Below are positions 10,277-45,576 of a DNA stretch of 64,000 nucleotides, piece after piece. Location of the stretch: assembly GCF_001624705.1 (NCBI RefSeq), contig NZ_JSEO01000002.1:372001-436000 (forward strand). The letters run 5' to 3'. The translations under genes were made by a program, and so were the position numbers. Under the pieces are notes generated by a model. It saw nothing but the letters and a program-made list of their open reading frames with translations. It had not been told where the DNA came from and searched no databases. Source of the DNA: Marinomonas sp. SBI8L. Its GTDB lineage: Bacteria; Pseudomonadota; Gammaproteobacteria; Pseudomonadales; Marinomonadaceae. Position 1 is the first letter of the stretch, and every line of letters starts with the position of its first letter.

Positions 10277-10302
10277 TTTCTTTACCTCATTTTTTTGTTG
10301 TA

Positions 10303-11218: not shown

Positions 11219-11324
11219 AATATACAAGTTGTGTCGATTTAGATTTTTGAACTGAATTGACGCTCATTTTCTAGAGCAAAAATAATCACTTCATTTATAA
11301 AGCGGTTATAGGGTGAGTTAAAAA

Positions 11325-12227: not shown

Positions 12228-12261
12228 AACTAAGGATTCACATTCTTTAATGGGAGGCAAA

Positions 12262-12798: not shown

Positions 12799-12843
12799 TT
12801 AATACCCTTACTTTCTAAAAATAATAAAAACGAGAGAAAATTA

Positions 12844-14136: not shown

Positions 14137-14181
14137 GTAATTAGCTAAATCATTAAATAATAAAAAAACGAGGACGAATTC

Positions 14182-15313: not shown

Positions 15314-18300
15314 CTAATGTTTAGCTAATATTTGCTCTACCATCACTTCTACATTGCCCTGTTCCATGATCGAATAATGATCGGCATTTACTTCATAAAA
15401 ACGAACATCGCTTAAAATACTTGCCCATGTACTTTTAACGTTTTCAATCTCAAGTATGTCATTTCTATTCGCAATAAATATCTGTGTTTTTAAATTGATT
15501 TTAGTAACAGGTTCAAAGCTCAACATGGCCTTTTGATTCTTATTACAACTCAAAATAACATTTTGGAAAAATGAATGAACCTCCTGATTTAAAGTCGCAT
15601 TAATCTGGCTAGAACCTTTACCCAATATAGCTTCAATCACATTTGATACACCTAATTCATCAGAACCACTTTTGATCGATATAGGGTTAAGGCTATCTTT
15701 TAAATGTGGATATTGCTGTTTCAGTTCTTCAATAAATACATTTTGCCCAGTTGCTTCTTCTTTATGACTCAAATTCTGTTTAAGGCTAGGCGGGTCTATG
15801 AATATCAAGTCTAAATTTTCCAATAACGCACTTTCTTCCAGCTCTAGTAGACGTATTATTTCCCAAGCAATCAGTGCCCCAAAAGACCAAGCAATAATGC
15901 GCTTTGGCACATTCTTTTTAATGCTACCAAGATAAGCCGCTGCTAAGGTTTCAACACTGGTAAGAGTTTGTGAGTTATCATGAAATAAAGGATCCTTGAC
16001 ACCTAACGTCTCATCGGTGTCAGGCAATGCTTTTATCAAGGCTCTATAACCCCCTAACTCACCACCAATTGGGTGAATCAGCATGTTTTTAGCGCCATTT
16101 CCAGCTTTAAGTATCTGACTATAATCCAGTTTTTGGATCTCTGATTCAGATACTTCATCATTACTTATGAGTTTGGTTAAACGGGCGATAGTGACATCTT
16201 GGTTAAGCTCTTTAAGCGAGATTTTTCCAGGGAAGCTGGCTTCTAAAGCATCAAATAAATCTAAAACGGTTAGTGAGTCACCACCTAGATCATAAAAACA
16301 AACCGCCTTTGATATGTCATCTTGCCCCAAACAGTCTTTAAAAAGGTTTGTTATTAGACTCTCCAAAGTTTGAGCTTCTTTATTTTCTACTGCTCTTTGC
16401 GGAATGAGTTTATTGTCATTTATCTCTTTAAAAAATGCCGTTTTATCATGATCCCTTAAAGGAGAAATTAGATACTGACTTGAGCCCTGCTCAAGAGTAG
16501 ATGAAAACAAGCTAACCCCCTGTTCAGCCGTTATTGCAAAATCGTTTCTCTCAACCTCGCTAGCCATACCTGTTCCTTGCCAAGTAGGCCAGTTCACACT
16601 GATAAACTCTGTATCTGGGAAAATCTGGTTCTGATGTTTTGCTAATAAATCTAAAAAATGGTTTGAAGCACAATAATCCGTTTGACCCGCTATTGCATTC
16701 ACAGAAGACATTGATGAAAAGTACATTACCTTTTTAGGCTTAAGAGACAATAAGGTTTTTTCAACGTTAATTGCGCCAAGTACTTTGGCTGACATTTTAT
16801 CTATCGTCTTTTCTGTATCTAAAAGGCGCATCATGCCACTACCACTTTCACCCGCTAGGTGAATCAGTGCGTAAACCTCACCAAAACTTGCTTGAATTTG
16901 CTGCTTAACCCATTTCATCGACATAAGATCAGTGATATCACACTTGAGTCTGTTTACCGCTAACTTTGTATCTAACGTATTACCCATTGAAGAGCGGCTC
17001 AAACAAATAAGCTTATTATTTGAATCCTGACTTAGGTGTTTTATCAAGGCTTCGCCTATGCCTCCAGTCCCTGTGAGTACATAAACTTTGTCTTTTCTCC
17101 CCTTTTTATCGAGGGCCTTAAGGTAAGTCGTTTTATCAGATTCGGATAATAAATTGGGTGGATTTATAGACCTTTGATAATGCTTTTGCCACAAAAAATG
17201 CCCTCTGATTGCATAATGGCCGGATGATAGGTTTTCTAATTTAAGTAATGCATTAAGAACGAGTTGTTCTGAAGTAGGTAGCATGTCCAACACCGTGTAT
17301 TTCAAATTTTCAAACTCAATTGGGCAGGTTTGTAATAAGCCAAGCAATAATGCACTGGTTGGATTTAAGCTTTCATCTCCTAATATTTGAGCACTGCCTT
17401 GAACAAGATTAATGATTTTGATTGTCTGCTTAGAATGATTAATCAATTTGCTCTGAATAAGATTAATCAGATCATTCCAATCATTAAAAATTTGTTTAAA
17501 CCCAAATGGAGCTAAATCTAGGTCATTAGAAAACCCTTGAGACGCTGTTGATGAGTAAGACGCTAGCTGATTAAAATTTAGCAAGGTAACATCTTTTAAA
17601 GTTTCTAGATCAAGCTTTTCAAGGGTTTTAACAAAGTCATCTAGATTAGAAAAGTAACTAACCTGGGTGAACACAGAGAGTTTCTCTGCTAGCTTTTTCC
17701 CCTGTTGGTTTGGGTTATCAATAAGGACATAGTGCTTATTAAAAGATGCATTGTTCCCTTCAAGGCTTTCCCCCCTCAACCAGTTTTCCTGTAGAAACCA
17801 ATCAGTTTCAGGCAACTGTTTAAAGCTAGTAAGCGCCTTACTTTTTGCCCTCTCTAATGGCTCAATATTTAACAAAAAAGTATTTAACGAAGAAGCATTT
17901 AATGAAGAGGTATCATCAGTCTTGTCATGGTTGAATAAATCACTCGCGTAAGAGCGTTTATTGAATTCGATTTTTGGCGGTTTAAGCTCATTTCTCGAAT
18001 CCGAGTTCGGTGATTGCCCCATAATAAGGTGAGCATTTGTGCCACCAATACCAAAACTGCTAATACCGGCATATGGCTTTGACATATCTTGGTCAAGCAT
18101 GTGAGGGCTTATTTCAAATCCAGCTTTAATGAAGTCGATTTTAGTATTTAGCGTATTTACATGAAGACTGGCGGGTATTTTTTTATGATAAAGAGATAAG
18201 GCTGTCCGAATAAAACCTGCAACGCCTGCTGCTGCGCCCAAATGCCCCATTTGGCTTTTTAAAGAGCCTAAGTAGCGTTTATTTTGGTGATCGACAGTTT

Positions 18301-21300
18301 CAGTCTGTTCTTGTTTTTCTGATTTAAGAGCCTGTGAAAGCGCACTGACTTCTATCGGATCACCAAGCAAAGTGCCTGTACCGTGCGCCTCTATATAACC
18401 GACTTCAAAAGGTTCGATCTCAGCTCTTTTAAGTGCCGTTTTAATCACCTCAATTTGCCCTGAAAGTGAAGGCGCAAAGTAACTCACTTTATCACTGCCA
18501 TCATTATTAATCGCACTCGATTTTATGGTGGCATAAATCGTGTTTTGATCCTGTATAGCCTGCTCTAATGGTTTAAGCACAACGGCTGCCACACCATTTG
18601 CAGGGACAGTACCGTCAGCATCATCGCTAAATGGTCGGCATAATCCTGTTTTCGATAAAATCATGCCCTCGCGATATGGATAGCCCGATAATAAATTTAG
18701 GTCTATGTTTACACCGCCAGCAAGGCAAACCTGACTATCACCATTTAACAGTTGCTGACAGGCTTGATGGATCGCAACGAGCGAACTTGAACAGGCAGTT
18801 TGAACAGAGATAGCAGGGCCTTTAAGATTGAGATGATAAGCAAGGCGTGTCGCAATAAAGTCTTTTTCATTTAGCAGGGATATGTGAAATTTATCTAGAT
18901 GTTTATTTTCAAGCTTAGATAGAATCTTAGTTTGGTAATCGCTATCACCTTGACTAAATACAACGCCAACCTTATTCGAGCCGTCACCTGTAATACCAGC
19001 ATCAGCTAATGCTTGAGCCGAAGTCATAAGAGCATGTCTATGCTGAGGGTCCATTAGCTTGGCATCATTAATTGATATGCCAAAATAGTGAGGATCAAAA
19101 TCAAACACATCTTGGATGCTAGATACGCTATTCACCCAGTGAGTATCTGAGCGACCTCCTTTCTCATCTTGAGTTTTTATCGCGCAGGTAGCGTTTTTAA
19201 TCAGTTGCCAGAAAGTTTGTAAATTATTGGCTTGTGGCAAATTGACCGCCATTCCTATTACAGCAATTTTTTGAATGCCATTATTAGCTTTAGCACTTAC
19301 GGTTGTTTGTTTTTCAATTATGTTTTCAGCAACTAAACCAAGATCGTTACTTAAAGGGTCTTGATCAATGTCATTTTTATTAAGTTTTTCGGCTAACTGA
19401 TTTAAATTTGGTGTATCCAATAAGGTCATGAGACTTAGATCAAAAGAAGCAATTTGAGCGTTAGTTAACGCATGATGAAACTTCATCATGAGAATCGAGT
19501 TCATACCTGCTTCGAAAAAATGCTGCTCTTGGTCGATTTGGTAACCGAGAATGGGGGTTAAGATTTCATGTAGTTGGCTAACTAAAGCTTCTTTGCTTCT
19601 ATTTGGCTCATTGCTTTTATTTAGTTCACTGCATTTATCTAGCTCTGTATTTTTATCTAAGCTGGACGTCTGATTAGTCTTACTCTGACTTGCGTTACTC
19701 GTCTTTTTACCATCTTTGAAATTTGGAATTGGCAAGCTGTGTCTGTCTACTTTACCATTCAAGGTTAACGGAAATTCATCCATTACTATTATGTATGAGG
19801 GTTGCATATAACGAGGTAAATTATCCATTAGCATTCTGGATAATTCGGTTCTCAACGTTTTCGAACCGCGCGAAGTGATTAATTCAGCCTCTTGATTATT
19901 TTCAATTGGTACTGGGGGGACTCGAACTACATAAGCTAAAAGCTCACTACCCGCATTTTCATTTTCAATGCTGGTTACCAGAGCTTGAGATACGCTTTCA
20001 TGGCCTAAAAGGCAGGTCTCAATCTCTCCGGTTTCAATTCGAAAACCGTTTACTTTGATCTGAAAATCTTTACGTCCAACAAGTTCAATATTGCCATCAG
20101 CACCACGTCTGGCTAAATCGCCTGACTGATACATTGTTTGAAAAGGCGATGTACTAGATATAAAAGGATCTGATGTGAATTTAATATGGGTCAGCGCTTG
20201 GTTATTTAGATAGCCTCTGCCAACATTTGCACCACTAATATAAAGCTCACCCACTTCACCTCTCGCAACCATCTTTTTCGATTCATCAAGAATATAGAGA
20301 CGATTGTTCTCCAATGCTTTACCAATATGGATATTATCTTGCTCTTTTGTCATTTCAGCAGCAGAGCAATAGACAGACGTTTCAGATGGACCATACAAAT
20401 TGAATAGACGCGCTTCATTCACTATAAGAGCGTTTTTCAATGGTGATGATAGATGATCACCTCCTGTCAGCATTTTTAACCCTTTGGAGGGTTTCCAACC
20501 GATATCAACCAACAACTGCCAAGTTGCAGGTGTTGCTTGCATTAGACTTACGCCATAGTGCTTTTGCCTATTAGATAAAAGCTGAGGCGTATGCGCTTCT
20601 TCCCAAGTTAACAACGCGAGTTTTGCGCCACAAATTAAAGGCAAATAAATTTCAGTAACATGGATATCGAAGCTGGGTGCGGTGAGGTTCATAAAGGTAT
20701 CTTGATCTGAGATATCTAGCATGTGCCTCATGGATAAGAGTAAATTGGTGATATTAGCCTGAGTCACCATGACACCTTTTGGTTCACCAGTAGAGCCTGA
20801 GGTATAGATAATATAGGCAAGCTCATTAATTGCATCATTCGTTCTTGCCGGGTTAGATGGGGCTTCTTCTTTTACTAATGCCCCATGGTTAGCATCATCA
20901 AGCGGAATCAGTGTTAAGGCTTCACTCAAATTCTGTAAGTTTTCAATATTGCCTAAAACCGTTTTTACTCCAGCAATATTGAGCATGCTCATTAATCTTT
21001 TGCTAGGGTTTCTAGAATCCAGGGGTAAATAACAAGCGCCTATTTTTGCAATGGCTAGAATCGCCAAACAGCTCGTTGGAGACCAAGCTGAAGCAAGCCC
21101 TAAAATATCTCCCTGTTGATAACCTAAACGCTTAAGGTAATGAGCCAATTGATTTGCTTTTAAATTTAACGCTTTGTAAGTAAGACCTCTATCTTCACCA
21201 TTCTCTTTCCAAACTAATGCCGTTGAATCAGGTGTCCTAGCAACTTGCTGTTCAAACATATCGATAAAAGAAAGTGAAAGATCAAACCCTAAGTCACTAT

Positions 21301-24300
21301 GTGTTTTTTCAAAATTAAGAGATCCCTCGAAATCAAAAGATGAGCGGCTTTTCGGTAAGCTGATATCTGTCGGCTGGTAATCTGTTAAACAATCCAACTC
21401 CATAATAAATCTATCTAGTATGGCTTTGGCTTTTGTCTGATTAATACAAGAGATTTGATATTCAAGGCACAATTCAGCACTTTCATGACTTTTAATTAGA
21501 TATAAAGAGATAGGGAATTTAGCATCACCAGCAAATCCAGTTACCGCCTGAATCGTTTGATCTGCTAGCTTAAAATTATTCAAATCCGTATTTTCAAGTA
21601 CAAATAAAGCCTCAAACAAAGACGGCTTATTGCCAAGAGACTGACTTAACTCACTAATTTGCTGAAAGTCTAAATTCTGGTGCGACAAGGTATCGATAAC
21701 GAGATCTTGTACATAATTAACAAAGTCTGACTGTCCTTCTCTGGAGCTCTCCTTTAAATGGAAAATACTCGTATTAGCGAACATGCCGACGATCGATTCA
21801 TCTTCTAAAGATTGACGATTAGCGATTGGAGAGCCAATGGGAATATTTTTGTTATCAAAGATTTTGGCAAGCACTAAGTAATAGGCACCTAAAAATAGGC
21901 TAAACAAAGTTACATTATGCGTTTTAACAAAGTGTTCGATAGATTCCCATCTGGCTGAATCAATAGACGAATGAAGCTGAGCTCCATTTTTGCTATCACG
22001 TAAAGAAGTCGGAAATAACAAATTTTTATTTGAATAGGCTTTGAGTTGAGTGAGCCAGAAATTCTCGTCATCAAGGTGACTTTGATTTCCAGCTTTATTA
22101 CTATCCTGACTATATTGTCCGTAGTTCGTGTTAAGTGCGTTTAAAGTGTTGGTTTCTTGTTTTAAACCACTTTGATATAACTGGTTGAGCTCATCAAGAA
22201 TAAGATTAAGACTCCAACCATCAATGATTAAATGATGAAAGTTAAAACTGAGAATCTGTTTTGCTTGATGATTATCTGGATCAGATATTTTAAAAAGACA
22301 AACTTTGGCTAAAGGGCCCCTTTCTAGATCAAAAGGGGTTTTCATAAATCGCTCTAGTTCAGTATCTACTTCTGCTTGTTTTATCTCACAAACCTTAAGA
22401 GGCATAACTAAACACGTTTCAGAGACCATCAATTGATTATTATTTAACTGAAACTGACTTGTTAAGCCTGTATGGCGAGCAAGCAATTGTGACCATGCCC
22501 ATTCTAATACAGAAACAGATAAACCCTTTTCCAGAAAGAAATGATAAGGCGCATAATAAGCCTTAGAATCTGGCTCCATTTGTTGTAAGAAAAACAAACG
22601 TAATTGCTGCTTTGTTGCCACATAGTGTTTGATGTTTGTTGATGGGCTCGCGGTATTTCCTTCTAACTCTTTTGATAATTCTGGTAACTGCTCAACCTTA
22701 GCGATTAGGTCATAAATAGTCTCAGTTTCTAGTATCTCCCTTACACTCAGTTTTATCGATAAGGCACGTTTTACAGTGGAGGAAAGGTGCATAGCTTTTA
22801 AAGAATCACCGCCGCTTTGAATAAAACCTTTTTCTAAGGAAAGTTCAGACTGATTGAGCACTTCGAGCAATAAATCAACACAGATATTACCTCTTATTGG
22901 CGCTATCTGAGCTAACGTGCTTCTTAGCTCATTTAAGCTTTCTTTCTCTTTATTAAAGCTTGTCACTGATGTTTGGCTGGATGCGAGTTCAGATAGCTCT
23001 GATCTTGCTAGTGCTAGTGCCTTTCTATCTAATTTACCATTCGCATTTAATGGCAGTTTGGCTAACACAAACAAACGATGTGGCAGCATATAAGTTGGAA
23101 GTTGTTCTTTTAGGTAAGCTAGTACCGAATCTTTGTTTAATGAGCGGGTTTCCTTATAGCGACTTTCTTCTGAACTTGTCTCTTCATTAACACCTTGAGC
23201 AGTAACGATATAAGTGTAAAGGTCTTTATAGCCAAGTCCCGAATCCACCCCTAAGGTAACCACTTGCTTAATATTAGGGTAGCTTACTAGGTGATTATCT
23301 ATCTCTGCTGTTTCGACCCTATGACCACGTATTTTAACTTGATCGTCTGCACGCCCTAGATATTCAATTTCACCTTTATCATTACGTTTTGCAAGGTCAC
23401 CGGTTTTATACCAAACATTAGAATCCAGCTCTTTGTTTGCTTTGTAGGCTAATTCAATGAAAACCTTATCCGCCTCACTATTAGCGCTAATATAGCCTTT
23501 AGTCAGACTTGGACCTGCAAGGTATAAGTCGCCAACTTCATTCGTATCAGCCAAATCACCTGTATTATTTTGAATAATCGCTTTCGTTTTACCAATGACT
23601 TTCCCAATAGGCACAGATGCATTGGTGATATATTCTTCGAGACGACTTTCATCTAACTTATGACATAAGCTGAATGTAGTGCACTCTGTGGGGCCATAGG
23701 CGTTATATAATTGGCTTTTACTGGTTTTACCCGCTTGTGCCTGGTAGAAGGCCATGCAACTTTGTGGTGATAAAGCCTCTCCCCCAACTAATAAGTGTTT
23801 GATCGAGATTATTTCTTGTGGGTATTTAGCAACCATGAAGTTAAATAACGATGCCGTCATAAAAGCATAATCTAGCTGGCTATGGTGAAGCTTTTGAGCA
23901 AAGGTGTCAGTTTCAATTAACTCTGTTTGATTAAAAATAACCAAACAAGCACCATTTAAAAATGCGCCCCATATTTCAAACAACTGAGCATCAAATGTAG
24001 GATTAGCCCAACTAGCGACTCTGTCATTAGCTCTGATATCGACATAACCTGGCGTAATCACAAGATTAAGAATGGCATCTTGGTGAATTGGTACACCTTT
24101 AGGAATGCCAGTTGTCCCTGAGGTAAAAAATAAGCAAAAACCCTGCTTTAAGTCTCTCGCTGCAAAGCTCGTCGTTTCTTCAGTATGAAATAGTGAGACC
24201 TCATTTGTATGGATATCAATACAATTAACGCCTAATTCAGAGGGGATGTTACCCAAGCCAAGCTCTACCTTGGCAAGTGATAGCATGGTTTTTTGTCTAA

Positions 24301-24607: not shown

Positions 24608-24637
24608 GAATAATATCTCTTCAAACAGTCTAATCTA

Positions 24638-36600: not shown

Positions 36601-36631
36601 ACTTAGCCCGGCTAATTAGCTTATGTGGCAT
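24638..36631 (-). CDS. NRPS, three modules with epimerase and thioesterase (docking-C-A-T-C-A-T-E-C-A-T-TE)
   Basis: 3997 residues. A TubC-type docking domain occupies ~1-52 (RAKSQGVYLYVENGSLKYK...). Then C1 (HHLIFDG, ~200), A1, T1 (Ser1074), C2 (HHIAIDG, ~1277), A2, T2 (Ser2163), an epimerisation domain (~2215-2660: HHLVIDAVSW, ESHGRE, MGWFSATFP), C3 (HHALIDGWC, ~2837), A3, T3 (Ser3714 in IGGTSI) and TE (~3765-3997, Ser3846 in GCSYGGY). Codes read by eye: A1 DITQIGLVYK (Gly-like), A2 DTGYISEVCK (not recognised, residue converted to D-form), A3 DAFFLGVTFK (Ile/Val-like). C3 should be of the D-accepting type, since it follows an E domain. The start overlaps the upstream NRPS stop by one base (TAATG), which implies translational coupling. 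A1 has YAPSE where YGPTE is usual. Confidence 0.95.
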   Translation of the reverse strand: MPHKLISRAKSQGVYLYVENGSLKYKAEKGKLTKSLAAELKEQKQALIDFLESHKKPDLALEIQALNSNKAPLSFAQSRVYFLEKLACDSALYHMVAAFKVSGPLNIEWLEASIKQIMARHSILSTAIASIDKDIKQVICQNQVECPIKVEEKGDLTESDWLVKQANKPFDLSKPPLFRVSLLKLAPEETILTFVFHHLIFDGYSYSCFFSELNDIYRAYALNKPVSEVKLPSLKFQYADYAHWQESEQSKLSTKTLNYWKAKMSGVQSLNSLPTDYKRTNQTLSEGVLIEDQLDQAMTNQVKAFAQRQGVSLYTVLMSVYSVLVGRWLENEDVVIGTPVSGRDISGVSDLIGFFANTLILRNQIAADKSFSEILETTKQGLAEAFQHQAMPFEKIVDQIGLERSELHAPILQLLFVLNQTDKASLALDSANVTKLLVDRKRINFELELHVTDKGDCLELYWLYAKALFKETSIIAFKQSYKTLLEQLILAPNKSIASFSLISQTDLKQIQAWNNTQQNFHPNLSFIERFEKNVSQNPDKLACVWYLEGKKQTLSYAELNKKANRIAHYLISKVAKRDVCIAMGYSWHIDAIISILAILKSGAAYVPIDTEQPEQRLKGMLENASIKLMLGPDRAKAGMQSLNVMDISSHTAEDILANFPNTNPTSKSHASDLAYVIFTSGSTGQPKGVMLEHASLNNFMDAMQERVNYQTHDIVACMTSTRFDIHITEILMPLVSSASISLLSWDQARSPKTILNRVKQDNISLMQATPSVWQLLYDEGFRPNSDFKMITGGDHLPESLKQALLNSHPEAKLFNLYAPSEATVYCSGNQVSLNQDKVNIGKPFANNRYYILDENEHQLPIGCIGELYISGKNLARGYLANDELTRQCFKPDIFCDDAGERMYQTGDLARRLEDGSVELISRKDFQLKLNGIRIEAGEIEHHLLQINSIDNALVTIKEIKPDYQALVAYLIPKSGELLDLVEIRRYLTRHLPSSFVPSYFVELWAFPLTQNLKVDRLALPLPDIDKAGAENTDQTLVLHANTNRETWLAALWEEMLSIAKLDINKNFFSLGGHSLLAIKMVNRISDKVGYEVSLRSLIQAGTVYELAKLIDELSDKLSGDNDTNIIPKTTPVQLSEKQESPLSFSQLRLWTLDQIETKGKHYCVPFKFEIKGELSLKALSESLLALIKRHQILTTSYHSEQEKVYQRVVKHESVNSNLVKQLLDYQDVTKARDLDDLVSHFESNIFERPFDLAKGDVFRVGLAKVADNKYHLYVGVHHIAIDGESSDILLNEIQNAYNASVSGKDYQPKPLAFQYKDYAAWQRNEHETNPSSKQQDYWQTRLAEYQPKTFLNTDLKRPEVSSYQGENVSTALDESTSHHLLETAKQLKVTPFSILYSALVVLLSRYSGEKDVLVGTVSANREKEALNHLIGFFVNNLALRTHLPEKISFKALIQSSHQNLLSDFEHQSLPFEQATKLLKLSAKQLKQPLFQIMMVLEHASNKEFEFEKTQVTPLSIKHKEARFDISLGVRIHPNKVEFNWNYALDLFTRETIEGFAKQLSHLVELSIRSLDEDVFKPALLTTSMKMSEHDQSNVNSAGHSSLDIIPNTSLLDLFQQKVKTHGSDPAISYQGETLSYDELEARSNQLANALIDKGICLGDSQGDIIAICLERSLNMIVSMLAVIKTGAAYLPIDTKTPANRLSFILNDSDSRLLICDNTELSSLCDKADFLYLPEFDVSTYSEYIPDLSSEIHPKSAIKPTATDLAYIIYTSGSTGQPKGVQLEHKGVVNYVKAQSAYLKLDKPKVDGLKAPSRFLYLTNFAFDTSVGSIWGALTSGHHLEIVSEEDRFNLAKLKRFLCQGDKYLVAYIPPILLDKLTPDDTSKLIPNIIVSGESVSQSVVDKYVEHTCLINEYGPTENSVCSSFHIYQAGDDANTIGQCINGVNAYVLDSFFNPVPQGVTGELYLSGVGLARGYLNQDELNQVSFIDTHFGRLYKTGDLVKTNKNAQLVFVSRIDEQIKIRGFRVELGEIEAEIQKVEGVKTAKVVLVENQGTKQLGAYVLTYQDDPQLLLAIYESLAFSLPDYMLPKLWAKTSSWPLNANGKLDKAALPKLSHLQFSQQLSQQYSENDLTAQEQTLLNLWQDMLKLESIGLNDNFFALGGDSILAMQLVARAVELGLHFSTKNLFEYPSIASLIPHIKNSNSLEAEQGASLGKQALLPIQHEFFHFAANKSNQFDQYYLFDVDQHFSLETMRRCFDILVNRHDALRLSFDNNQAAYHVEKDLNSACYETYMSKMDNESLNKVCNQINHSLDIAKGSVFKLVRLYCDNQTKLFILSHHLVIDAVSWQILISDFVKLYQAKIPSHNLLAAKTLSYQDWGKLLNHKVTMEYFEKHEANYWAKVSNQIKQIPKTHIRSNQTERPQIAIDQFELNLNDTQDLLNKANKAYHTDTQTLLITAISLTLAKMQKEDEKRPVSFTLESHGREGLSTGLVKQLMSHGLLKAEPDLSQTMGWFSATFPLLIEVDAQKQKALETSDLGAVICRVKESFKQVPNKGIGYGVLNWLGEKPKQAIIETDVLFNFFGQTHSDQEGFNENSAMKGITPHKVTLEDGAYNHMTPQKMAINARVSDGVLCFELAYQTGIYSDNDIRQFKAGVYGYLIRIIEHNLEQKSVRYTPSDFPVVNLTQEDLDIWQKRISKEEANLVNVYPLTGMQAGLLYQNQLESDAYITQLDLHYHELDIEIFKLAWYQLIQRHDIFRTGFMTTTAGDKYQVVINKTPLDWRTLDLSHLKAIDYTARFKSVQAEDKTRGFNHEEPCLMRFSLIKTALGDYHLIWTNHHALIDGWCLPILLSELNHIYHALKNETAITLKEAPSYQNFVKWLDEQDVQTANEFWQSKLQAIADYKPLSTRPISSRSLSSKPHDLTQSEKAKAIKSQCYLNSGQTSDLKVLAQEAQCTLNSLFQAAWGLLLSNYTDSNDIVFGSIVSGRHSQVHDIEKMVGLCINTLPVVMSLDKNADIKTWLKQLHREHVEAESFTYLPLQDIWKQTVTGNQAMFDSLLVFENYPLDQGLKSTKNGLTLAGLKSEEQTNYPLTIVIVEEGEIEIKLLSNDQHLAQWQVDQILNHFKTLLVHMSQANKLNDVKMLIHEDKHKQVTPCEETNQKLDKRSLIECFEAIVQSSPFNTAISFNQIKLSYQTLNEKANTLAHYLIAKGAKSGDNIGIHTERSIEMVVAMLAVMKLRATYVPMDTSYPASRLTHMIESASISHIICDQDTTNIQSDIELTFVAFPHLPSGLSKENVDKTQLDKFDVKNKTIPAYLMFTSGSTGLPKGTMIPESGIKRLVKQTNYVELNQDKKIAQISNFSFDAATFEIWGALLNGAQLVILPNEVIKNAQALSNKIESENIDIMFMTTALVNQMISINPKIFAGLDTLLFGGEKVNKQTINHMLDSGKPKHLVHVYGPTENTTFSTFHEIKEKADEYPIGKPISNTSTYILSKSLDLTPFGQVGELYLGGQGLALGYLNQAALTHTKFIESPFDQSQILYRTGDLVRYLANGDIEFVARLDDQIKLRGFRIERLEVLSQLMTIDLISKASIELIEREKEPVLAAVFTSLHVIETQAEKDEALATVKAELRLKLPSYMLPSEFHLYDELPLTQNGKLDRKKIVERLKTQKANKQVNTASPRDEIEMALYQIWLDILTTKDISITDNFFDIGGTSISAIKLIHKIEQVWPIKLSVSELLKAPSIEALGGIIRQNQGSDIEAVRNELIEFRKGEGELNVICPHLGGGTAFGYLSLAKVLPDEFGVYGIQAKGVDTDGVFLPDVQAMAEYYLTLVSHLTSKPHVFVGCSYGGYIAYEMARILNAAGHKSVAILLDSEGTHDQAVLDQISPVSLDVFKQKLVTYNGMYPHIDDAQIDRYFRIYNHHLLSLKTMSLAKSEARTITVIATGDKSDAYIDSLTAFWAGKAEADFQLELVDGDHSTMLQAPSILKVADIIKTELT

Positions 36632-39600
36632 TAGATTTCTCCTTCTTCTAGATCTAACGCTAATTCAGGACTGTCTTGGCTAACATTGCTGTCGATTACG
36701 GCCTGAATGAAGCTCGCTTGAGCTTTAATGCTGGGGTTATTGAAGAAGTCACTAATACTTAGCTGCACAAAGAATTGTCGCTGAATCTCTGCAATGATGT
36801 TCATCGCTAAAAGTGAATGCCCACCAAGTGAGAAAAAGTTTGCTTGAATACTTAATTCAGTTCTATCAAGATGCTTTTGCCATATTAAACTTAACTCTTT
36901 TTCTAGCATGCTTGAGGCAGGCTCAAATGGTGTATCAGTGCTTAGAGGAGAATCCAATTTGGCTTTATTTACCTTGCCTTGTGCTGTCATTGGGATCTCA
37001 TCCATTAAGATAATGGCATTTGGGCACATGTATTCAGGCAGTTTCGCTTTTAGTTGTCTTCGAAGCTGTCTTACGAGTTTCCTTTCACTTCCTTGTCCTG
37101 CTAACCAAGCCTGTTTGACCTCATTTTCTACAACAACATAAGAATAAATAGCCGCATCACTCACAATTGAATAAGCTTGCTTAACATCTAGGCTAGTTTC
37201 TAATTGGTAATTAATTTCTCCCAAAGCCACTCTAAAACCACGGACTTTTATTTCATCGTTGAGTCTACCTAAAAAGATAAGCTGTCCATCTTGATTCCAT
37301 TTAACTAAATCACCTGTTCGGTAATATCTTTCTTGAGTGGAAATCTGAGCCGAAGCTGACATTGGATTAGTATTTGGGTCTATGGCTTTGCCTGGTAAGG
37401 CACAATCCGGGATAAAGACTTTTTTATTAAGTTCGTCATTATTTAGATAACCTTTGGCAATACCATCTCCTGCAACATATAGCTCTCCCGGTACCCCAAT
37501 AGGTGCTATTTGACCATTAACAAGGACTCTTACTTTGGCATGAGATACAGGACGACCAATTGGCACGTCTTTAATATTGTGAAGATCAACCTTGTAGAAA
37601 CAGGCATCAACGCAGGTTTCAGTTGGTCCATATAAGTTATAGAAAGCAGCATCAAAGCCCTCTGGTAAACGAATGTCTCCTAGGACATCGCCACCAGTGA
37701 GCAAGGTTTTTAAACTCCTTGGCCACTGGACTTGGTTAGCACATACATGAGTCAGCAAACCTGTCGGTAAGCATGTGTGAGTAACTTGTTGAGCATTTAT
37801 TAATTGTATTAGAGTACTTGGGTTATCTCTTTCTGCATCAGGTACAAGCACCAATTTCCCGCCTGCCATTAATACCGGCCAGACCTCGGCCATAAAGGCA
37901 TCAAAGCCAACATAGGCAAGGCTTGTACCCACACTGTTTTCATCTAATTTAAATTCATCGATATGCCATAAGCTCATTTTATAAAGAGCAAGTTGGCTGA
38001 TTTCAATGCCTTTGGGTTGTCCGGTTGAGCCAGATGTATAGATAACATAAGCACTTGCATCTGGTTTGTACTGACTTGCTTCAAAATGTGTATCTTGAAT
38101 GCTTGTGAAAAGCACGTTATTTAAAACAATCTGATTACATGGCAGGTTATTAACGCCAACTAACGAGCCATCATCAATGATGAGCTTTGCTTGGCTATCA
38201 AGTAAAATATGCTTCAATCTCTGTTCTGGTAAATCACTCCCCACCATAACGGCACAAGCACCGAGCTTAAACACAGCCAGCATAGCAATTAGATTAAAGG
38301 TATTTCTTTGACAATGAATGGCGATTTTATCGCCTTCTTGGTAACCATTATTTTTAAGCTGATGTGCTAACGCATTCGAGTAAATATCTAGCTTGGCATA
38401 AGAAAGGGTTTCTTGGATATCTTGAATAGCCGTTTTGTCTTTAAGGCTCTTAGCCTTTTCTCTAATCGAAGTAACTAACCCATGTTCTTTAAACGTTTCA
38501 CTTGTATTATGAGATAAAGGAGCACCTTGACCCCAAACACTTAGTATTTGTTTTCTCTCTTGTTCTGTAAGGACATCTATTGCAGAAATCGGTTGATGAG
38601 AGAGAAAACGATACTCATCTAGAATATTTAAAAAACTGGTTTTGAAAGCAGACAAAAATCGCTGCATCTCATCTTGGGTGTAAATGTCATTACGGTATTC
38701 CCATAAAAAGTGGACTTCTTCACTTTCGTTAAAGGTTTTACCTCTTGGAACGACAAGACAATCAATATCAAATTTTGAAGTATCTGAGATAACGGTTTCG
38801 TCTTTATACCAAGTCAATCCCTCAATTTCGCGCTCATTAACCGGTGTATCATGAAAGCCTAAAAGAACATTAAAAAATGGATTAGATGCACTACCGCGCT
38901 CTGGATTAAGTGCTTTTACCACAAGGGGGAAAGGTAATTCTTCATTCGCCTGAGCCTGATCAACGATATTCTGTGTATTTTGAAGAAATTCAAACAAGGG
39001 GGTTTCAAGATTAAGTTTATGTCTAAGTACAACCGTATTCACAAACATACCTAATGTGGCATGTGAGTCCGCCCAGTTACGATTAGCAAAAGCTGAACCA
39101 AAACTTAGATCTTGTTCACCTGAAAAACGCCCAAGGCAAAGATACAAAATAGAGGATGTATAACTAAAGGGAGTAATGCCTATATCACGGCATAAAGTCT
39201 CCATTGCATGCCATTGTTCACGCGTGAAAATCATTTTCTCATGAGAACCTGCAAAGCCTAAGCTATGCGATTTTTTACCAAAAAGAGCCACACCTTGCGG
39301 TGCACCTTCTAACTGCTTTTTCCAATAACTTTTCTGTTTTTCAGCATGCTTTGAATCTAACCAAGCTTGTTGCGATAAAACAAAGCTAGAGTATTGGCTT
39401 GCCTCTTGATAAGAGGTTTTAAACTCAGCATTAACAAAACTATGGTAATGATGTATTAGTTCGTTGGTGAACTCGTTCGCACTCCAACCATCATGGATAA
39501 TATGATGTTCTTGATGCAGTAAGACATGATGCTCTTTATCAAATCTTACCAAGATAAATTCAGCTAATGGTAACTGACTTAAATCCTCGATACGGTCTAA

Positions 39601-41793
39601 TTCTGTCTTAAAAGTATGTTCTAAAAAGGCCTCTTTATCTTCCTCTGTCACAGTTAGAGCATCAATACTTCTTAGACTCATCTTATATTCTGGCAATATA
39701 GTTTGGACAATGCGGCCATCTATTTCCGTGAATCTTGTGCGATAAATATCGTGATTAATAATAATTTGGTTAATTGACTTCTCAAGAGCATCACTTACGA
39801 ACCTCCCTTTAAAGTGCGTTGCGGCTTCAGCCAGATAAGCTTTGCTATCTGGCTGGTTCTTATGCATGTACCAAGCAACCATTTGCTGGTTGGAAAGTGG
39901 AAATTCAGTTTTACCTTTATCGATTGCCTTTGTTGTTAGACCATCTATTTGCTCAAGCTGACTATTCGCTAACACACCTTGTATTGTTGCATCTTGTTTA
40001 AATTGCTTCATGGTGAGATGACGGTTCAGCAAGCTTCGTAATCTACTCATAAAACGTATTGCGGTGATTGAATCACCACCTAGAGCGAAGAAATCATCAT
40101 TTACCCCAAGCTCATCAAGATCAAATATATTTTTCCATTCATTTACAAGTATTTCTTCATCTGGTGAGTTCGCTAAAATGAGTTCACCTTTTCTTAGTGG
40201 CGCAAAGCCTGTAGGAAGTTGCTCGTGATCGATTTTACCCGCCAACGTCAGTGGCCACTTTTCTAATGGAACGAATAGGCTTGGAATCATGTAGTCTGGC
40301 AAACTTTTAGCCAATTTCTCTTTAATCGCGGTGATATCTGAGTCTTTAAGGTCTTTTCCTACCAGATAGGCGATTAATTTATGCGTTTCTTTTGTGGTCA
40401 CTGCTTTAACAAGTGCCTGGTCAACCAGGCTATCAAGGCAAAGGCTTGCTTCAATTTCAGCAGGCTCAATACGATAGCCTCTTACTTTTACTTGCCTGTC
40501 ATTTCTGCCGATGTACTCATAGCTGCCATCTTGCTGACAAACAACCAAATCACCTGTTTTATATAGAATCTCATGACCAACTTCGCTATAGGGATTTGAC
40601 ATGAAGTGGTTTTGAGTGAGCGTCTCTTGATTCAAGTAGCCATTAGATAAGGCGATACCACTAATATAAAGCTCCCCCATCTCGCCTATTGGCAAGCGGT
40701 TCAAGCTTTGGTCCAAAACATAAAAGTTCACCTTATCGATAGGCTTACCAATATTGTTTTTAGCTTTTGAAATATCATGACAAAGATTCATAGAAACTGT
40801 CACAGTGGTTTCAGTTGGACCATATGAGTTAACAAGTCTCTCACCCCAAATTTGCTGAAGCGATTTTGGGCATTTATCTCCCCCTGTGACAATGCGTTTT
40901 AAATTTGGCAGTTCTCCACAATCGCCCAATGCCGATAAAAATGATGGCGTTGCATGTAGGTGGGATATTCTATTGAATTCGAGCATTTGCTTGAAAATCG
41001 TTGGGTCTTTTATGTCATCACTTGAAGGGATGAAGAGCTTGGCACCATTGAGTAAAGCTAAGAATATATTTTCAATTGAGGCATCAAAGATATGGTTAGA
41101 AGATAAAATGATGCTTTCATCTTCGGTAAAGTGATACGCCCTAGTTTGGTTTAATATTAAGTTAATAAGACTATCCTGTCTTACCATCACTCCCTTGGGT
41201 TTTCCTGTTGTTCCTGATGTATATAATAAATAAGCTAAATCAGTAATTTCATTAGTTTTAGTAGGTCTTTTTATGCCATCAAAAGTAAATTCTGTAATTT
41301 GGTGTAATTGACTGTTTTCTTTTTTGTATCTGATTTTATTTAAATAAATTTTATCACAAACTATTATATCTGCACCTGAATCTTCTATTATGTATTGAAT
41401 TCTATCTTCTGGATAATCTGGTGAAAGAGGAATGTAAGCCGCGCCTGATTTTATTACACCTATAATTGCGATTATTAAGTCAATACCTTTATCAAACAGA
41501 ATAGGAATGAATGTTTTATCATCTATGTCTTTTCCATTGAGTTGGTGGTAATCCCATCTTATTCGTTTAGCCAAGGTATCTGATAGCTTATTAAGCTCTT
41601 GATAAGAAATGGTTTTATCTTTATAAATTAAAGCTTCTTTAGCGGCATATTGCTCGAATTGGTAGTCTATCAGCTCGACTAACGAGAAACTTTCAAACTC
41701 CATCATTAGCTTTTTTTTGACATCAAATATACTGTCTTTAGTTGTTGTTTTCTTGTCTTTTTTATTATTATTTTCTTTGATCAAGTCTTCCAT
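36631..41793 (-). CDS. NRPS initiation protein, two modules (A-T-C-A-T)
   Basis: 1720 residues. A1 (~35-530; LLYTSGTTGKPKG, NSYGPTET), T1 (Ser575 in LGGDSI), C (~630-1075; HHIIHDG), A2 (~1105-1600; IYTSGSTGQPKG, NLYGPTET) and T2 (Ser1660 in LGGHSLL). There is no N-terminal C domain, so it most likely loads the first residue. By-eye pocket codes are DAEHVGSVTK for A1 and DAACLGLVDK for A2; I recognise neither and make no substrate call. The N-terminus is unusually Lys/Asn/Thr-rich. The C-terminus ends in an acidic tail, LALDLEEGEI, fitting a linear docking motif for the TubC-type domain of the next protein. It is first in the leftward three-gene operon and is divergent from the ATP-grasp gene. 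Confidence 0.95.
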   Translation of the reverse strand: MEDLIKENNNKKDKKTTTKDSIFDVKKKLMMEFESFSLVELIDYQFEQYAAKEALIYKDKTISYQELNKLSDTLAKRIRWDYHQLNGKDIDDKTFIPILFDKGIDLIIAIIGVIKSGAAYIPLSPDYPEDRIQYIIEDSGADIIVCDKIYLNKIRYKKENSQLHQITEFTFDGIKRPTKTNEITDLAYLLYTSGTTGKPKGVMVRQDSLINLILNQTRAYHFTEDESIILSSNHIFDASIENIFLALLNGAKLFIPSSDDIKDPTIFKQMLEFNRISHLHATPSFLSALGDCGELPNLKRIVTGGDKCPKSLQQIWGERLVNSYGPTETTVTVSMNLCHDISKAKNNIGKPIDKVNFYVLDQSLNRLPIGEMGELYISGIALSNGYLNQETLTQNHFMSNPYSEVGHEILYKTGDLVVCQQDGSYEYIGRNDRQVKVRGYRIEPAEIEASLCLDSLVDQALVKAVTTKETHKLIAYLVGKDLKDSDITAIKEKLAKSLPDYMIPSLFVPLEKWPLTLAGKIDHEQLPTGFAPLRKGELILANSPDEEILVNEWKNIFDLDELGVNDDFFALGGDSITAIRFMSRLRSLLNRHLTMKQFKQDATIQGVLANSQLEQIDGLTTKAIDKGKTEFPLSNQQMVAWYMHKNQPDSKAYLAEAATHFKGRFVSDALEKSINQIIINHDIYRTRFTEIDGRIVQTILPEYKMSLRSIDALTVTEEDKEAFLEHTFKTELDRIEDLSQLPLAEFILVRFDKEHHVLLHQEHHIIHDGWSANEFTNELIHHYHSFVNAEFKTSYQEASQYSSFVLSQQAWLDSKHAEKQKSYWKKQLEGAPQGVALFGKKSHSLGFAGSHEKMIFTREQWHAMETLCRDIGITPFSYTSSILYLCLGRFSGEQDLSFGSAFANRNWADSHATLGMFVNTVVLRHKLNLETPLFEFLQNTQNIVDQAQANEELPFPLVVKALNPERGSASNPFFNVLLGFHDTPVNEREIEGLTWYKDETVISDTSKFDIDCLVVPRGKTFNESEEVHFLWEYRNDIYTQDEMQRFLSAFKTSFLNILDEYRFLSHQPISAIDVLTEQERKQILSVWGQGAPLSHNTSETFKEHGLVTSIREKAKSLKDKTAIQDIQETLSYAKLDIYSNALAHQLKNNGYQEGDKIAIHCQRNTFNLIAMLAVFKLGACAVMVGSDLPEQRLKHILLDSQAKLIIDDGSLVGVNNLPCNQIVLNNVLFTSIQDTHFEASQYKPDASAYVIYTSGSTGQPKGIEISQLALYKMSLWHIDEFKLDENSVGTSLAYVGFDAFMAEVWPVLMAGGKLVLVPDAERDNPSTLIQLINAQQVTHTCLPTGLLTHVCANQVQWPRSLKTLLTGGDVLGDIRLPEGFDAAFYNLYGPTETCVDACFYKVDLHNIKDVPIGRPVSHAKVRVLVNGQIAPIGVPGELYVAGDGIAKGYLNNDELNKKVFIPDCALPGKAIDPNTNPMSASAQISTQERYYRTGDLVKWNQDGQLIFLGRLNDEIKVRGFRVALGEINYQLETSLDVKQAYSIVSDAAIYSYVVVENEVKQAWLAGQGSERKLVRQLRRQLKAKLPEYMCPNAIILMDEIPMTAQGKVNKAKLDSPLSTDTPFEPASSMLEKELSLIWQKHLDRTELSIQANFFSLGGHSLLAMNIIAEIQRQFFVQLSISDFFNNPSIKAQASFIQAVIDSNVSQDSPELALDLEEGEI

Positions 41794-41912
41794 AATTCAA
41801 CCTAAACTAAATTTTTTTAAAAACTTTTTACTTGTTATTTATGCATTTGTAAAGTTATTGTTAGTAAAGAAAATTATCAATCTTGACTATTAAGTTAAGC
41901 TCGTGAGGTTAA
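41794..41912. promoter_or_regulatory. Divergent promoter region of the NRPS operon and the ATP-grasp gene
   Basis: 119 bp, very AT-rich, between two outward-facing genes. It must carry the start signals for the 26-kb leftward operon and for the rightward ATP-grasp gene (Shine-Dalgarno GAGG just before 41913). A TTGACT hexamer lies at 41883, close to the ATP-grasp start. No clear operator symmetry was seen, and no regulator gene lies within the cluster. Confidence 0.5.
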
Positions 41913-43229
41913 ATGAAGAGTGTAAACAAAGAGTTTTGGTATTCTTTTTTTGATGAGAATCCAGAGTCAGATGATGTTGCTGATGCTATTAAATCTGTAG
42001 GAAGTTTAAGTCGATTTACACGCCCTGATTGGAGTTTAATCCTTACTCCTAGCCTATTTACTGAGACGGAAATCTCTAAAAATACGCTTGAGCTAAATAC
42101 GCTTTTCCAACTCATAAAAAAACTAGTACTAAAACTTTATGATGGAGATTATTACGCTTTTTCAAATGCTGTAGGCTTTAAAAATATAAAGTTACAAGCC
42201 CTTTTTGATAGCTATGCTAAGCGTCATCTCAATGTCATAACCCCTTGTCGCTGGGATCTCATTAAATCAGATTCCGGATTAAAAGTTTTAGAGCTTAACG
42301 CTGGTGGATCTCTAGGTGGCTTTGCCTTCGATCAAGTCCAGAAAGTATATGATGACTGCTTTAACAAAGCCCAACTAGAAACAGATCGCTCGCTTGATAA
42401 TGAAGTTTGGGCTGCACCTTTCGATGAAATTGCCAATTTTATGATCCAAAAACTTACCAAGCTAAACAACCCACTTGTTTTAGTGATTGATGATGAAACC
42501 ATGTATCAAGACAGCCCTCTGATTGCGAATAGTATCTCTATGGCTCTTGCCACTAAATTGCAGATTCAGGTTAAAACCATAGTACATACGGATTTTGAGA
42601 AATCGTTAGATGAACATGATGGTGATGTTATGACTTTTGAAGTCTTTAGCATGAGTCATATTGCTAAGGCTGAAGATGAGTATCATGGATACTTTTGCGC
42701 CATAGACAATGATGAGATCACACCAACAATTGATCTTTTAAGCGAGCTCTATATGAGCAAAGCCATGCTTGCTCTCATTGCTGATAAAAATCACTTCCCA
42801 CTCTTTTCGACAGATGAAGTTAAAGCCATTGAATCGCTCGTACCAGAAACCTATCTGTTAGAAAACGCATCTGAACTCGATCTAGGCAATGATTGGTTGC
42901 TCAAGCCGGCTAATGGTTATGGTGGTCAAGGTGTTATCTGCAAATGGGAAACACAGAATGAGTCTTGGCAACAAAGTTTAAATAATGCCAAAGATATTGA
43001 CTCAGCATTTATATTACAGCGTAGAGTCAACGCCACCCAAGAAAAACACATCGCAATGACAGCCAGAGGGGACTTTGTAGAATCTACTTATCCTAGTGTT
43101 TATGGATTCTTCAATATTAACAATCAATTTGCTGGCGGCAGTGTCAGACAGTCACTTACCGCTAGTGGTGTGATTAATGCGAGCAGAAACGCCGCGGTGG
43201 GGATTGTTAGACATCACAAAGACAGTTGA
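41913..43229 (+). CDS. ATP-grasp superfamily protein of the NRPS cluster
   Basis: 438 residues. RWDLI (~112) followed by LKVLELNAGGSLGGF (~124-138), then much later WLLKPANGYGGQGV (~328-341) and FILQRRVNA. This order, an Asn-containing ELN strand before the lysine/glycine-rich loop, suggests a circularly permuted ATP-grasp fold like that of glutathionylspermidine synthase-type ligases. Such enzymes form amide bonds through an acyl phosphate. It is divergent from the NRPS operon and convergent with the MFS gene (15-bp gap), so it is probably part of the cluster. It could add an amino acid or amine to the peptide, make a precursor, or give self-protection by modifying the product. The function is inferred only at the fold level. 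Confidence 0.7.
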   Translation: MKSVNKEFWYSFFDENPESDDVADAIKSVGSLSRFTRPDWSLILTPSLFTETEISKNTLELNTLFQLIKKLVLKLYDGDYYAFSNAVGFKNIKLQALFDSYAKRHLNVITPCRWDLIKSDSGLKVLELNAGGSLGGFAFDQVQKVYDDCFNKAQLETDRSLDNEVWAAPFDEIANFMIQKLTKLNNPLVLVIDDETMYQDSPLIANSISMALATKLQIQVKTIVHTDFEKSLDEHDGDVMTFEVFSMSHIAKAEDEYHGYFCAIDNDEITPTIDLLSELYMSKAMLALIADKNHFPLFSTDEVKAIESLVPETYLLENASELDLGNDWLLKPANGYGGQGVICKWETQNESWQQSLNNAKDIDSAFILQRRVNATQEKHIAMTARGDFVESTYPSVYGFFNINNQFAGGSVRQSLTASGVINASRNAAVGIVRHHKDS

Positions 43230-43244
43230 AAGACTGACATAGGC

Positions 43245-44498
43245 TTAACTTGGGTCAGCAATCGCGCTTCCTTCTCGTGTGTTTAAAGTTTGATTCAAAA
43301 ATATCACACTGGCAAAGGACGCGATTGCAGCACCAACTAACCAAGTATTAGTTAGTCCCATGTAGCTAGCACCTAATGCGCAAAGCAGAGTACCAAGCAC
43401 TCCCCCAGTCCTAGAAACAAAAGACATAATAGAGTCAACCGTTGATCTCACTTTATCTTGTGTCGCATGACCAACTAAGTGGCTACGAGCAGATGCACCC
43501 AGCTCAAGTGAGAAATCAAAGGCGATAAATGAAATGAGAAACAGAATAATATGATTAGAAAGACTTAACGCAATGACACTAAGGAGCTGGCACATCAAAC
43601 CAATAAATAGCACCTTGCCCATTTGCTGATTTAAAATATCGCATAGCCATGTTGTTACGCGTGCTGCAAGTCCTGCAAGAAATAGAGTAACGGCAAAAAC
43701 TAATCCAAACATCCATGCAAGCGATTCACCTTGAGTAATATCATAAAACTCAACCTGCCAAAATTTTTCAATTGCACTAGCAAGTGGAATAGCGAGCAAA
43801 CCAGACATTAAGATTCGCCATAAAACCGGATGTGAAACGGCAATAATTCCATTTTTTAACTGCAAACTCACGCCATTAAAACTCGACTTTGACATAGTGT
43901 TAAACACCCTCTTTTCTTTAATCCAAACAAAAGAAGCGATAGACACCAAAAAATAGCAACTTGCTGCAGCTAACAATAAGATTCGAAATAGAGTCAATTG
44001 ATCAATTGATATCCAAATGCCTATATAGACAAAAAGAGAGCCCAGTAATGCGCCGCAAGCCCCCATTAAATTCGTTCTAAAACCTACCATGGCAAAACCT
44101 TTTTGCAGGCTCTGCTCTCCTTCTGATGCTTGGTAGGTTTCAACAAACCAAGCAGTTATTGTTCCAGAACTTAATGAGATCCCTGCGCCCCAAAATAGCA
44201 TGCTTAAAATTGCACCTATGACACTTGGATAAACACACAAAATTAGTAGTGAACAGATATTAAGAACTAACGAAGATATGAATAATTTCTTTCTTCCTAT
44301 CTCATCAGCTAATCCCCCTGTTGGTATTTCTAAGAGGATAACTGTGCCACCCATTACCGCCATAATGACGCCAATCTCTTCAATATTGGCGCCCATTTCG
44401 ATAAATAACGGCGTTAAAATGGGCAGAGCTAAGAACTGTCCGAAGAAAAATAGCCCTAAAAGAAGTCCATAATAATGGCTTAATTGTTTTCGATTCAT
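43245..44498 (-). CDS. MFS transporter, probable exporter of the cluster product
   Basis: A 417-residue membrane protein with about 12 hydrophobic segments. The MFS motif A appears between helices 2 and 3 as GGLADEIGRKKLF. The first helix region (YYGLLLGLFFFGQFLALPILTPLF) and the wide cytoplasmic linker near residues 195-215 (KEKRVFNTMSKSSF) fit a 12-helix drug-efflux-like carrier. It sits between the ATP-grasp and cupin genes and is divergent from the latter. Export of the NRPS product or resistance is the likely role; no substrate can be read from the sequence. Confidence 0.85.
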   Translation of the reverse strand: MNRKQLSHYYGLLLGLFFFGQFLALPILTPLFIEMGANIEEIGVIMAVMGGTVILLEIPTGGLADEIGRKKLFISSLVLNICSLLILCVYPSVIGAILSMLFWGAGISLSSGTITAWFVETYQASEGEQSLQKGFAMVGFRTNLMGACGALLGSLFVYIGIWISIDQLTLFRILLLAAASCYFLVSIASFVWIKEKRVFNTMSKSSFNGVSLQLKNGIIAVSHPVLWRILMSGLLAIPLASAIEKFWQVEFYDITQGESLAWMFGLVFAVTLFLAGLAARVTTWLCDILNQQMGKVLFIGLMCQLLSVIALSLSNHIILFLISFIAFDFSLELGASARSHLVGHATQDKVRSTVDSIMSFVSRTGGVLGTLLCALGASYMGLTNTWLVGAAIASFASVIFLNQTLNTREGSAIADPS

Positions 44499-44566
44499 CC
44501 ATAAATCCTATCAAGTACTAAATACTGACCACTTACAAAAAAATTTATTTTTAATTTTGCATTAAT

Positions 44567-44582
44567 GTTATAACCATATAAC
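44567..44582. promoter_or_regulatory. Palindrome in the MFS/cupin divergent promoter
   Basis: GTTATA-ACCA-TATAAC, 6-bp perfect arms, in the middle of the 139-bp gap between divergent genes. The position suits an operator acting on both genes. The binding protein is unknown. Confidence 0.4.
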
Positions 44583-44637
44583 AAAGATTAAACAATTATC
44601 ACAATAAATTAATCACTTAGGATTTAGGTTATAGCTC

Positions 44638-45576
44638 ATGGATGAACAAATCTTAAACAACATACCTGGCATGGATAGCGCTAAACAGGTCGTTTGCATT
44701 GATGCTGATGCACTAACTGAGTCATCTTTTTACGACAATTTTGTCTCATTAAACAAGCCTTGTTTAATTAAGAATGCCATATCCCATTGGCCAGCAATGA
44801 ATAAATGGTCAGATAAAGAATACTTAAAGACTTTGTGTGGAGAGAATACCTCTAACTATTACCCCCACATGAATTATGACGATGAAAAGAATATGTTGGT
44901 TGATGAGACAAAAGTCAGTTTTTCTCAGATTCTAGATCTTCTTTCTGTCGACTCTGACGAAATAATTAGTGCTCCTTCCATTTTATTAGAAAGAACGCCT
45001 TATAATGTCCTGGCTACAGATATGGCTGGGTTCAACTTTTTACCACAGCCTTCAAAACCAATTGCCTATCCAACAAGTCGTGCCTTCTTTTATAAGAAAG
45101 CAGGTACTGGTTGGCACTATCATTTTGTAGATGAAACTTTAATGTGCCAAGTAAAAGGCACAAAACGAGTGGGCCTTTTACCACCCGATAAAATTACAGA
45201 TGATATTGTTCATGATATTTTCACAACAGATGCTTATTTGTTAAAGGATGCTTTTAAAGATAAAGACAAGGAGAAAATACAACCTCTCATTGCACAGGTC
45301 GAACCTGGTGACGCGCTTTATATCCCTCCTTTTTGGTGGCACGGTGTTGAAACCTTAGATAAAGAGTACGGCATCACTGTTGCCAATTGTTGGCGCTCAC
45401 CTTTTCATGTTATGGGCGACCTTTCATATCCTACTGTTAGAAAAATTTGGAAAAAATCTCTTACCAAACCTAATAAAAACACACCTTTTGTTGTTGCTTT
45501 TGGCTCACTTAGTTTTATTGCTCAAGCAATACGACTGTTTCAAATCCCATTTAAGCCTAAAAATCTAAATAATTAA
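44638..45576 (+). CDS. Cupin-8/JmjC-like oxygenase with an altered metal motif
   Basis: 312 residues. It resembles FIH-type cupin-8 proteins: PCLIKNAISHWPAMNKW at the N-terminus, GWHYHFVDETLMCQVKGTKRV in the core and GDALYIPPFWWHGVETL near the end. The usual first iron motif HxD reads His160-Tyr-His162 here, with an Asp three residues later (Asp165); the distal His is His235. If His162 replaces the Asp ligand, the site would be three-His rather than two-His/one-carboxylate. Relatives hydroxylate Asn, Asp or other side chains using Fe(II) and 2-oxoglutarate. In this cluster it may beta-hydroxylate a residue, but the odd motif makes the reaction uncertain. Confidence 0.7.
   Translation: MDEQILNNIPGMDSAKQVVCIDADALTESSFYDNFVSLNKPCLIKNAISHWPAMNKWSDKEYLKTLCGENTSNYYPHMNYDDEKNMLVDETKVSFSQILDLLSVDSDEIISAPSILLERTPYNVLATDMAGFNFLPQPSKPIAYPTSRAFFYKKAGTGWHYHFVDETLMCQVKGTKRVGLLPPDKITDDIVHDIFTTDAYLLKDAFKDKDKEKIQPLIAQVEPGDALYIPPFWWHGVETLDKEYGITVANCWRSPFHVMGDLSYPTVRKIWKKSLTKPNKNTPFVVAFGSLSFIAQAIRLFQIPFKPKNLNN

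Follow-up and report, generated by a model that had tools for sequence, protein, structure and literature searches.

Convergent nonribosomal peptide synthetase (NRPS) pathways of the thaxteramide type merge two NRPS products into one molecule, and a text search returned no usable literature on convergent NRPS lines. Synergistic pairs of metabolites that arise from one cluster have been published for griseoviridin/viridogrisein (PMC5655939) and the laxaphycins (PMC7524897). Both systems are likened to the Marinomonas locus by description only, the likeness being two products from one cluster, and the available parts of their descriptions mention no ATP-grasp joiner. The ATP-grasp ligase Cp1B of E-64 biosynthesis joins a small acid and an amino acid, as stated in the available part of its report (PMC12568646).

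The window analyzed here, a stretch of 64,000 nucleotides from Marinomonas sp. SBI8L, harbors a six-gene cluster (15314-45576) that is conserved in Marinomonas. It would encode two assembly lines whose released acids may be joined by an ATP-grasp enzyme; we infer every chemical step of this reading and consider its chances nearly balanced. The three large genes are intact open reading frames (ORFs) on the minus strand, namely gene 1 (36631-41793, 1720 aa), gene 2 (24638-36631, 3997 aa), and gene 3 (15314-24607, 3097 aa). Pfam resolves gene 1 into A-T-C-A-T (two AMP-binding, one Condensation, and two PP-binding stretches) and gene 2 into TubC_N-C-A-T-C-A-T-E-C-A-T-TE (TubC_N, four Condensation-family, three AMP-binding, three PP-binding, and one Thioesterase stretch), where one of the Condensation-family domains carries the E-type motif HHLVIDAVSW, as seen by eye. 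Gene 3 reads A-T-C-A-T-KS-KR-ACP-TE (two AMP-binding, one Condensation, and three PP-binding stretches, the N and C parts of a KS, a KR, and one Thioesterase stretch). Upstream of the first A domain of gene 1 or gene 3, Pfam places no Condensation domain. The domain orders given in the initial annotation are correct, and so is its statement that each set starts with an A domain lacking an upstream C and ends in its own thioesterase (TE). With A, C, T, KS, KR, and TE domains that carry their active-site motifs, the proteins belong to the modular NRPSs and NRPS-polyketide synthase (PKS) hybrids. A tblastn search of a gene 1 stretch against plasmids gave generic NRPS matches alone (best listed, 33% identity). 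The KR-ACP-TE part of gene 3 has matches in 6 of 369 genomes of the class at 1e-20, the own genome included, and the best one outside the own genome reaches 112 bits versus 1965 for the part itself.

Marinomonas sp. MED121 (NZ_CH672432.1; L071, L080, L081) contains the complete set of six genes with order and strands unchanged, and a contig profile scan with the cupin alignment found the MED121 gene as its sole locus. A text search found no literature on a biosynthetic gene cluster of this strain. Its gene 2 has the same Pfam domains as that of the window, including TubC_N, the E motif, and the TE. The same holds for the part of gene 1 that follows an assembly gap, the very start of the gene lying inside the gap. 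In its gene 3, which also starts on an A domain and keeps the KS-KR without an acyltransferase (AT) and the TE, two PP-binding domains pass Pfam versus three in the window, and the third is visible by motif. The active-site motifs of the A core, C, E, T/ACP, KS, KR, and TE domains in the window are likewise kept. Amino-acid identities are 58.8% for gene 1, 52.9% for gene 2, 48.5% for gene 3, 48.5% for the ATP-grasp-like protein, 68.4% for the transporter, and 74.7% for the cupin protein, whereas nine neighboring genes reach 79.4-98.6%. Fourfold degenerate sites are identical at 30.8-39.8% in the six cluster genes (31-35% in genes 1-3) and at 32.1-54.4% in the neighbors, mostly higher than in the cluster; composition alone predicts about 28%. 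Because the full layout recurs at 48.5-58.8% identity in genes 1-3 with fourfold sites near this background, a chance layout can be dismissed, as can an artefact, a frameshift, or decayed genes. Judged from this sequence comparison, the layout is real and under selection, since order, TEs, motifs, and near-identical A-domain codes are kept at 49-75% protein identity. The motifs kept throughout argue that selection maintains the two lines with their TEs and the AT-less module.

The two loci differ in their surroundings. Read from right to left, the window runs lumazine synthase, cupin, MFS, ATP-grasp, genes 1, 2, and 3, TRAP, aldo-keto reductase (AKR), GntR, Gfo, TauD, acetyltransferase, and GGDEF/EAL, with other ORFs interspersed. 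MED121 runs lumazine synthase, TRAP, AKR, GntR, Gfo, TauD, cupin, MFS, ATP-grasp, genes 1, 2, and 3, five other ORFs, acetyltransferase, and GGDEF/EAL. The catabolic TRAP block (window 7988-15252) and the NRPS cluster (15314-45576) have thus swapped positions with their strands kept, which delimits the cluster as one unit. The genes that lie beyond gene 3 (TRAP transporter, aldo-keto reductase, GntR, Gfo/Idh, and TauD) were named from their translations, and TauD and the aldo-keto reductase were also scanned. TauD (7988-8968) was rejected as a cluster gene, as it travels with the Gfo-GntR-AKR-TRAP block to the other side of the cluster in MED121. Since cluster proteins are 49-75% identical and neighbors 79-99% while their fourfold sites overlap, faster evolution of the proteins at a single shared location may be enough to explain the divergence of the cluster; an older split of the two cluster copies or independent horizontal acquisition by each species is possible on the same sequence data. 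Direct repeats were absent from two 601-base stretches at the cluster edges, and the promoter-like sites beside the cluster numbered eight, fewer than the shuffled mean of 13.7. A further genome of the genus (G032) carries the ATP-grasp-like, MFS, and cupin genes with the same order and strands, followed by one other ORF and then dus and transaldolase, which are also found farther along in the window. In that genome a run of 40,000 N with round ends (G032:C2:1056001-1096000) immediately precedes the ATP-grasp-like gene and occupies the place expected for the NRPS genes. The own genome holds a second NRPS-type locus (C45:273229-304436; L031, L032) with frames of 1355, 3230, 3346, and 1740 aa and one of 714 aa.

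Genes 1 and 2 probably act as one assembly line and gene 3 as another. Two A-first, TE-terminated lines, as first proposed, remain the simplest reading, and it is strengthened by the conservation of both TEs, the A start of gene 3, and the gene 1 tail and gene 2 dock in MED121, with the operation of the lines inferred from this layout. The TE of gene 2 (24674-25303, minus strand, Pfam 1.8e-19) would release line 1; its GCSYGGY motif and its Asp and His motifs are kept in MED121. The TE of gene 3 (15317-16081, minus strand, Pfam 1.4e-10) would release line 2, keeps its Ser, Asp, and His motifs in MED121, and matches the TE of enterobactin synthetase EntF at 6e-4; its GxSxG motif, intact in MED121 (IGWSFGAL), has Ala in place of the first Gly in the window (IAWSFGAL). 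Gene 2 starts with a TubC-type docking domain (36476-36625, minus strand, Pfam TubC_N 3.7e-13; 4.2e-14 in MED121), which matches solved NRPS docking domains at 1.3e-7 (Kj12B-NDD) to 5e-4. Its putative partner is the acidic C-terminal tail of gene 1, which ends in EEGEI and is kept in MED121, an arrangement that resembles the TubC-type pairs of Kj12B-NDD and AerJ. Gene 3 opens with its A domain, and Pfam finds no docking domain at its start.

The three genes follow one another on a single strand, with one base common to the gene 1 stop and the gene 2 start and a 30-bp gap between genes 2 and 3, and are probably expressed together. This tight spacing would also suit a single non-colinear line, in which genes 1-2 would take over the chain of gene 3, or gene 3 that of gene 2, and one TE would serve as a transfer or editing domain. 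We regard such a line as unlikely: the proteins at both junctions carry a terminal TE whose Ser-Asp-His motifs are conserved across two species, genes 1 and 3 have no C domain in front that could receive a chain, and the sole dock found, in gene 2, would pair with the gene 1 tail.

The nine-residue codes of the A domains, extracted at what we take to be the code positions, are near-identical across the two species for all seven domains. They read DAEHVGSVT (DAEHVGSIT in MED121) for the first A domain of gene 1 (g1A1), DAACLGLVD (DAACLGMVD) for g1A2, DITQIGLVY (DIAQIGLVY) for g2A1, DTGYISEVC (DTAYVSEVC) for g2A2, DAFFLGVTF (DAFLLGITF) for g2A3, DAFFLGATF in both species for g3A1, and DITQLGLVY (DITQIGLVY) for g3A2. 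By our reading, DAFFLGVTF and DAFFLGATF fit the Ile/Val-like residue that had been assigned to the final position of line 1 and to the opening position of line 2. The assignment of a Gly-like second residue to gene 3 holds up less well: DITQ(L/I)GLVY resembles what we take to be a Gly code, but pocket positions differ. g2A1 and g3A2 form one clade (100/100) with near-identical codes, and their split is older than that of the two species; the two lines therefore probably share a building block. When six of the seven codes were searched for in the literature, only DAFFLGVTF was found, in two papers, one of them on cyanopeptolin (PMC2533009).

The PKS module of gene 3 consists of a KS (18158-19270, minus strand, aa 1780-2150), whose Cys-His-His is kept in MED121 and which is not followed by an AT, and a KR (16577-17086, minus strand, aa 2508-2677, Pfam 1.1e-25), whose Ser-Tyr-Asn region is kept as well, together with the ACP. 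The score of the best KS match, 7zma, is the sum of two KS copies (231 and 239 bits), and a text search with its PDB codes found no literature. A hidden AT was ruled out, as Pfam detects no Acyl_transf_1 or other AT domain in gene 3 of either species; two 100-residue blocks in the KS-KR interval rank among the least conserved of the gene (25% and 19%). The PF00698 profile has one match in the own genome (5.19 Mb, 99.98% complete), a FabD-like frame of 312 aa whose neighbor on the contig is a 424-aa fab-type KS, and likewise one in the MED121 genome (313 aa); a second AT was found in neither. The module thus resembles those of trans-AT PKSs in lacking its own AT, a gap that the initial annotation does not mention, but a dedicated discrete AT was found in neither the cluster nor the genome. 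With no other AT found, FabD is the most likely loader of malonate onto the ACP of gene 3, a supply route that we consider rather probable, and a text search returned no usable literature on FabD with AT-less modules. The own genome has three ACPS-family matches (frames of 128, 280, and 281 aa). The same scarcity of ATs, with a single AT-family match in either genome and none in the module, would agree with a KS-KR that merely relays the chain without extending it, so that line 2 would make a plain dipeptide. That outcome seems very improbable to us, as the diverged species share the Cys-His-His of the KS, the KR motif, and the serine of the ACP, which fits an active module.

Divergent from gene 1 lies a gene for a 438-aa ATP-grasp-like protein (41913-43229, plus strand) with an E-x-N motif (127-129) followed by a glycine-rich loop (331-340), which is the candidate amide ligase of the cluster. 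At 1e-3 it has no Pfam or NCBIfam match, and the MED121 and G032 proteins have no significant Pfam match of their own. Weak links point to a distant relationship with circularly permuted ATP-grasp amide ligases. A member in G496 scores CP_ATPgrasp_2 at 1.6e-5 and one in G1090 scores CP_ATPgrasp models at 1e-4 and 2e-4, in both cases below the gathering scores, and a profile from a five-member alignment (A6) matches Cp1B (PDB 9cjn) at 1.1e-4 over its C-terminal part (profile 278-437). The alignment A1 alone found no relative among solved structures up to E 1, and two predicted structure models have pLDDT values of 31.8 and 34.3, too low for fold comparison. Cp1B is a pseudodipeptide-forming amide ligase, but it belongs to a fungal, NRPS-independent pathway and its sequence link to the 438-aa protein is weak. 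From the relatives with CP_ATPgrasp matches and the Cp1B match, the protein is likely an amide ligase and possibly the joiner of the two NRPS products; this candidate joiner, which the initial annotation did not name, is conserved next to the NRPS genes in both species.

Relatives of the protein were sought with several profiles. A1 matches 4 of 369 genomes of the class and 8 of 390 of the order, the own genome included, the others weakly. A5 matches 3 of 49 genomes of the genus (the own genome, G032, and G782, whose match has the coordinates of the MED121 gene), and A6 matches 116 of 398 genomes of the phylum, where most listed matches are short pieces near the glycine-rich loop. Contig profile scans with the ATP-grasp alignment came back empty even though the collection scanned includes MED121, which has a relative, and given this insensitivity we make no claim of rarity. 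NRPS genes accompany one of six distant members (G229, G329, G496, G1040, G1090, and contig C69 of the own genome), so the family is not tied to NRPSs. In G1040 (L097:34-14068) the member is flanked by two NRPS genes, all on one strand; the first has three A, two C, and three T domains and opens with A-T, and the second reads C-A-monooxygenase-T. A luciferase-like monooxygenase domain is inserted in the A domain of the latter. No NRPS-size ORF was seen around the members in G229, G329, G1090, and C69, and the G496 member lies in a phosphonate-type cluster (G496:C11:33000-52999; L062) with PEP mutase, a TPP enzyme, aminotransferases, PhyH, another ATP-grasp protein, and MFS.

Next to the ATP-grasp-like gene are a likely MFS exporter (43245-44498, minus strand, Pfam MFS_1 2.6e-16) and a Cupin_8/JmjC protein (44638-45576, plus strand, Pfam Cupin_8 1.2e-25; JMJD7 4.2e-13). 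JmjC/Cupin_8 hydroxylases carry an HxD...H iron triad. By its domain, the protein is a candidate member of these 2-oxoglutarate hydroxylases; H160 and H235 are present, and in the alignment with JMJD7 the Asp of HxD falls on His162, or on Asp165 with a shift, so an unusual metal site is possible. The iron motif HYHFVDE has the same letters in G032, and MED121 matched this pattern or its alternative.

In the proposed pathway, gene 1 would load a free amino acid and hand over a dipeptidyl chain, by way of its acidic tail and the TubC-type dock, to gene 2, which would add three residues, epimerize residue 4, and release a pentapeptide through its TE. Gene 3 would load an Ile/Val-like residue and then a residue of the type incorporated third in line 1, after which one extension would follow with malonate that FabD most likely puts on the ACP. 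After reduction of the ketone by the KR, the TE would free a short acid whose terminal unit is a gamma-amino-beta-hydroxy one. Both products had been predicted earlier, and a pentapeptide carrying its D-residue at position 4 as well as a dipeptide with one reduced ketide follow from the domains through co-linearity only. Off the lines, the ATP-grasp-like enzyme most likely forms an amide bond. Its simplest use would be to join the two released acids, a role that we find plausible while leaning slightly against it. The cupin protein would probably hydroxylate a residue, and the MFS protein would export the product. As a whole, this convergent scheme of two TE-terminated lines that release two acids, amide joining off the lines by the ATP-grasp enzyme, and a PKS module fed by housekeeping FabD is put forward tentatively.

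The two lines could also yield two distinct metabolites, acting jointly or independently, with the ATP-grasp enzyme capping one of them with an amino acid or some other group, an alternative that deserves serious though less than even weight. Each line is complete from its start to its TE, synergistic pairs from one cluster are on record in the available parts of the griseoviridin/viridogrisein and laxaphycin reports, and relatives of the ATP-grasp-like protein occur away from NRPS genes too; yet the common ancestry and code of g2A1 and g3A2, the one transporter, and the one hydroxylase fit one product slightly better.

If two lines do feed one ATP-grasp ligase, the cluster would be a natural case of NRPS fragments joined off the assembly line, which would be useful for combining peptide modules. 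The pathway would, if true, also include a terminal PKS module that lives on FabD alone.
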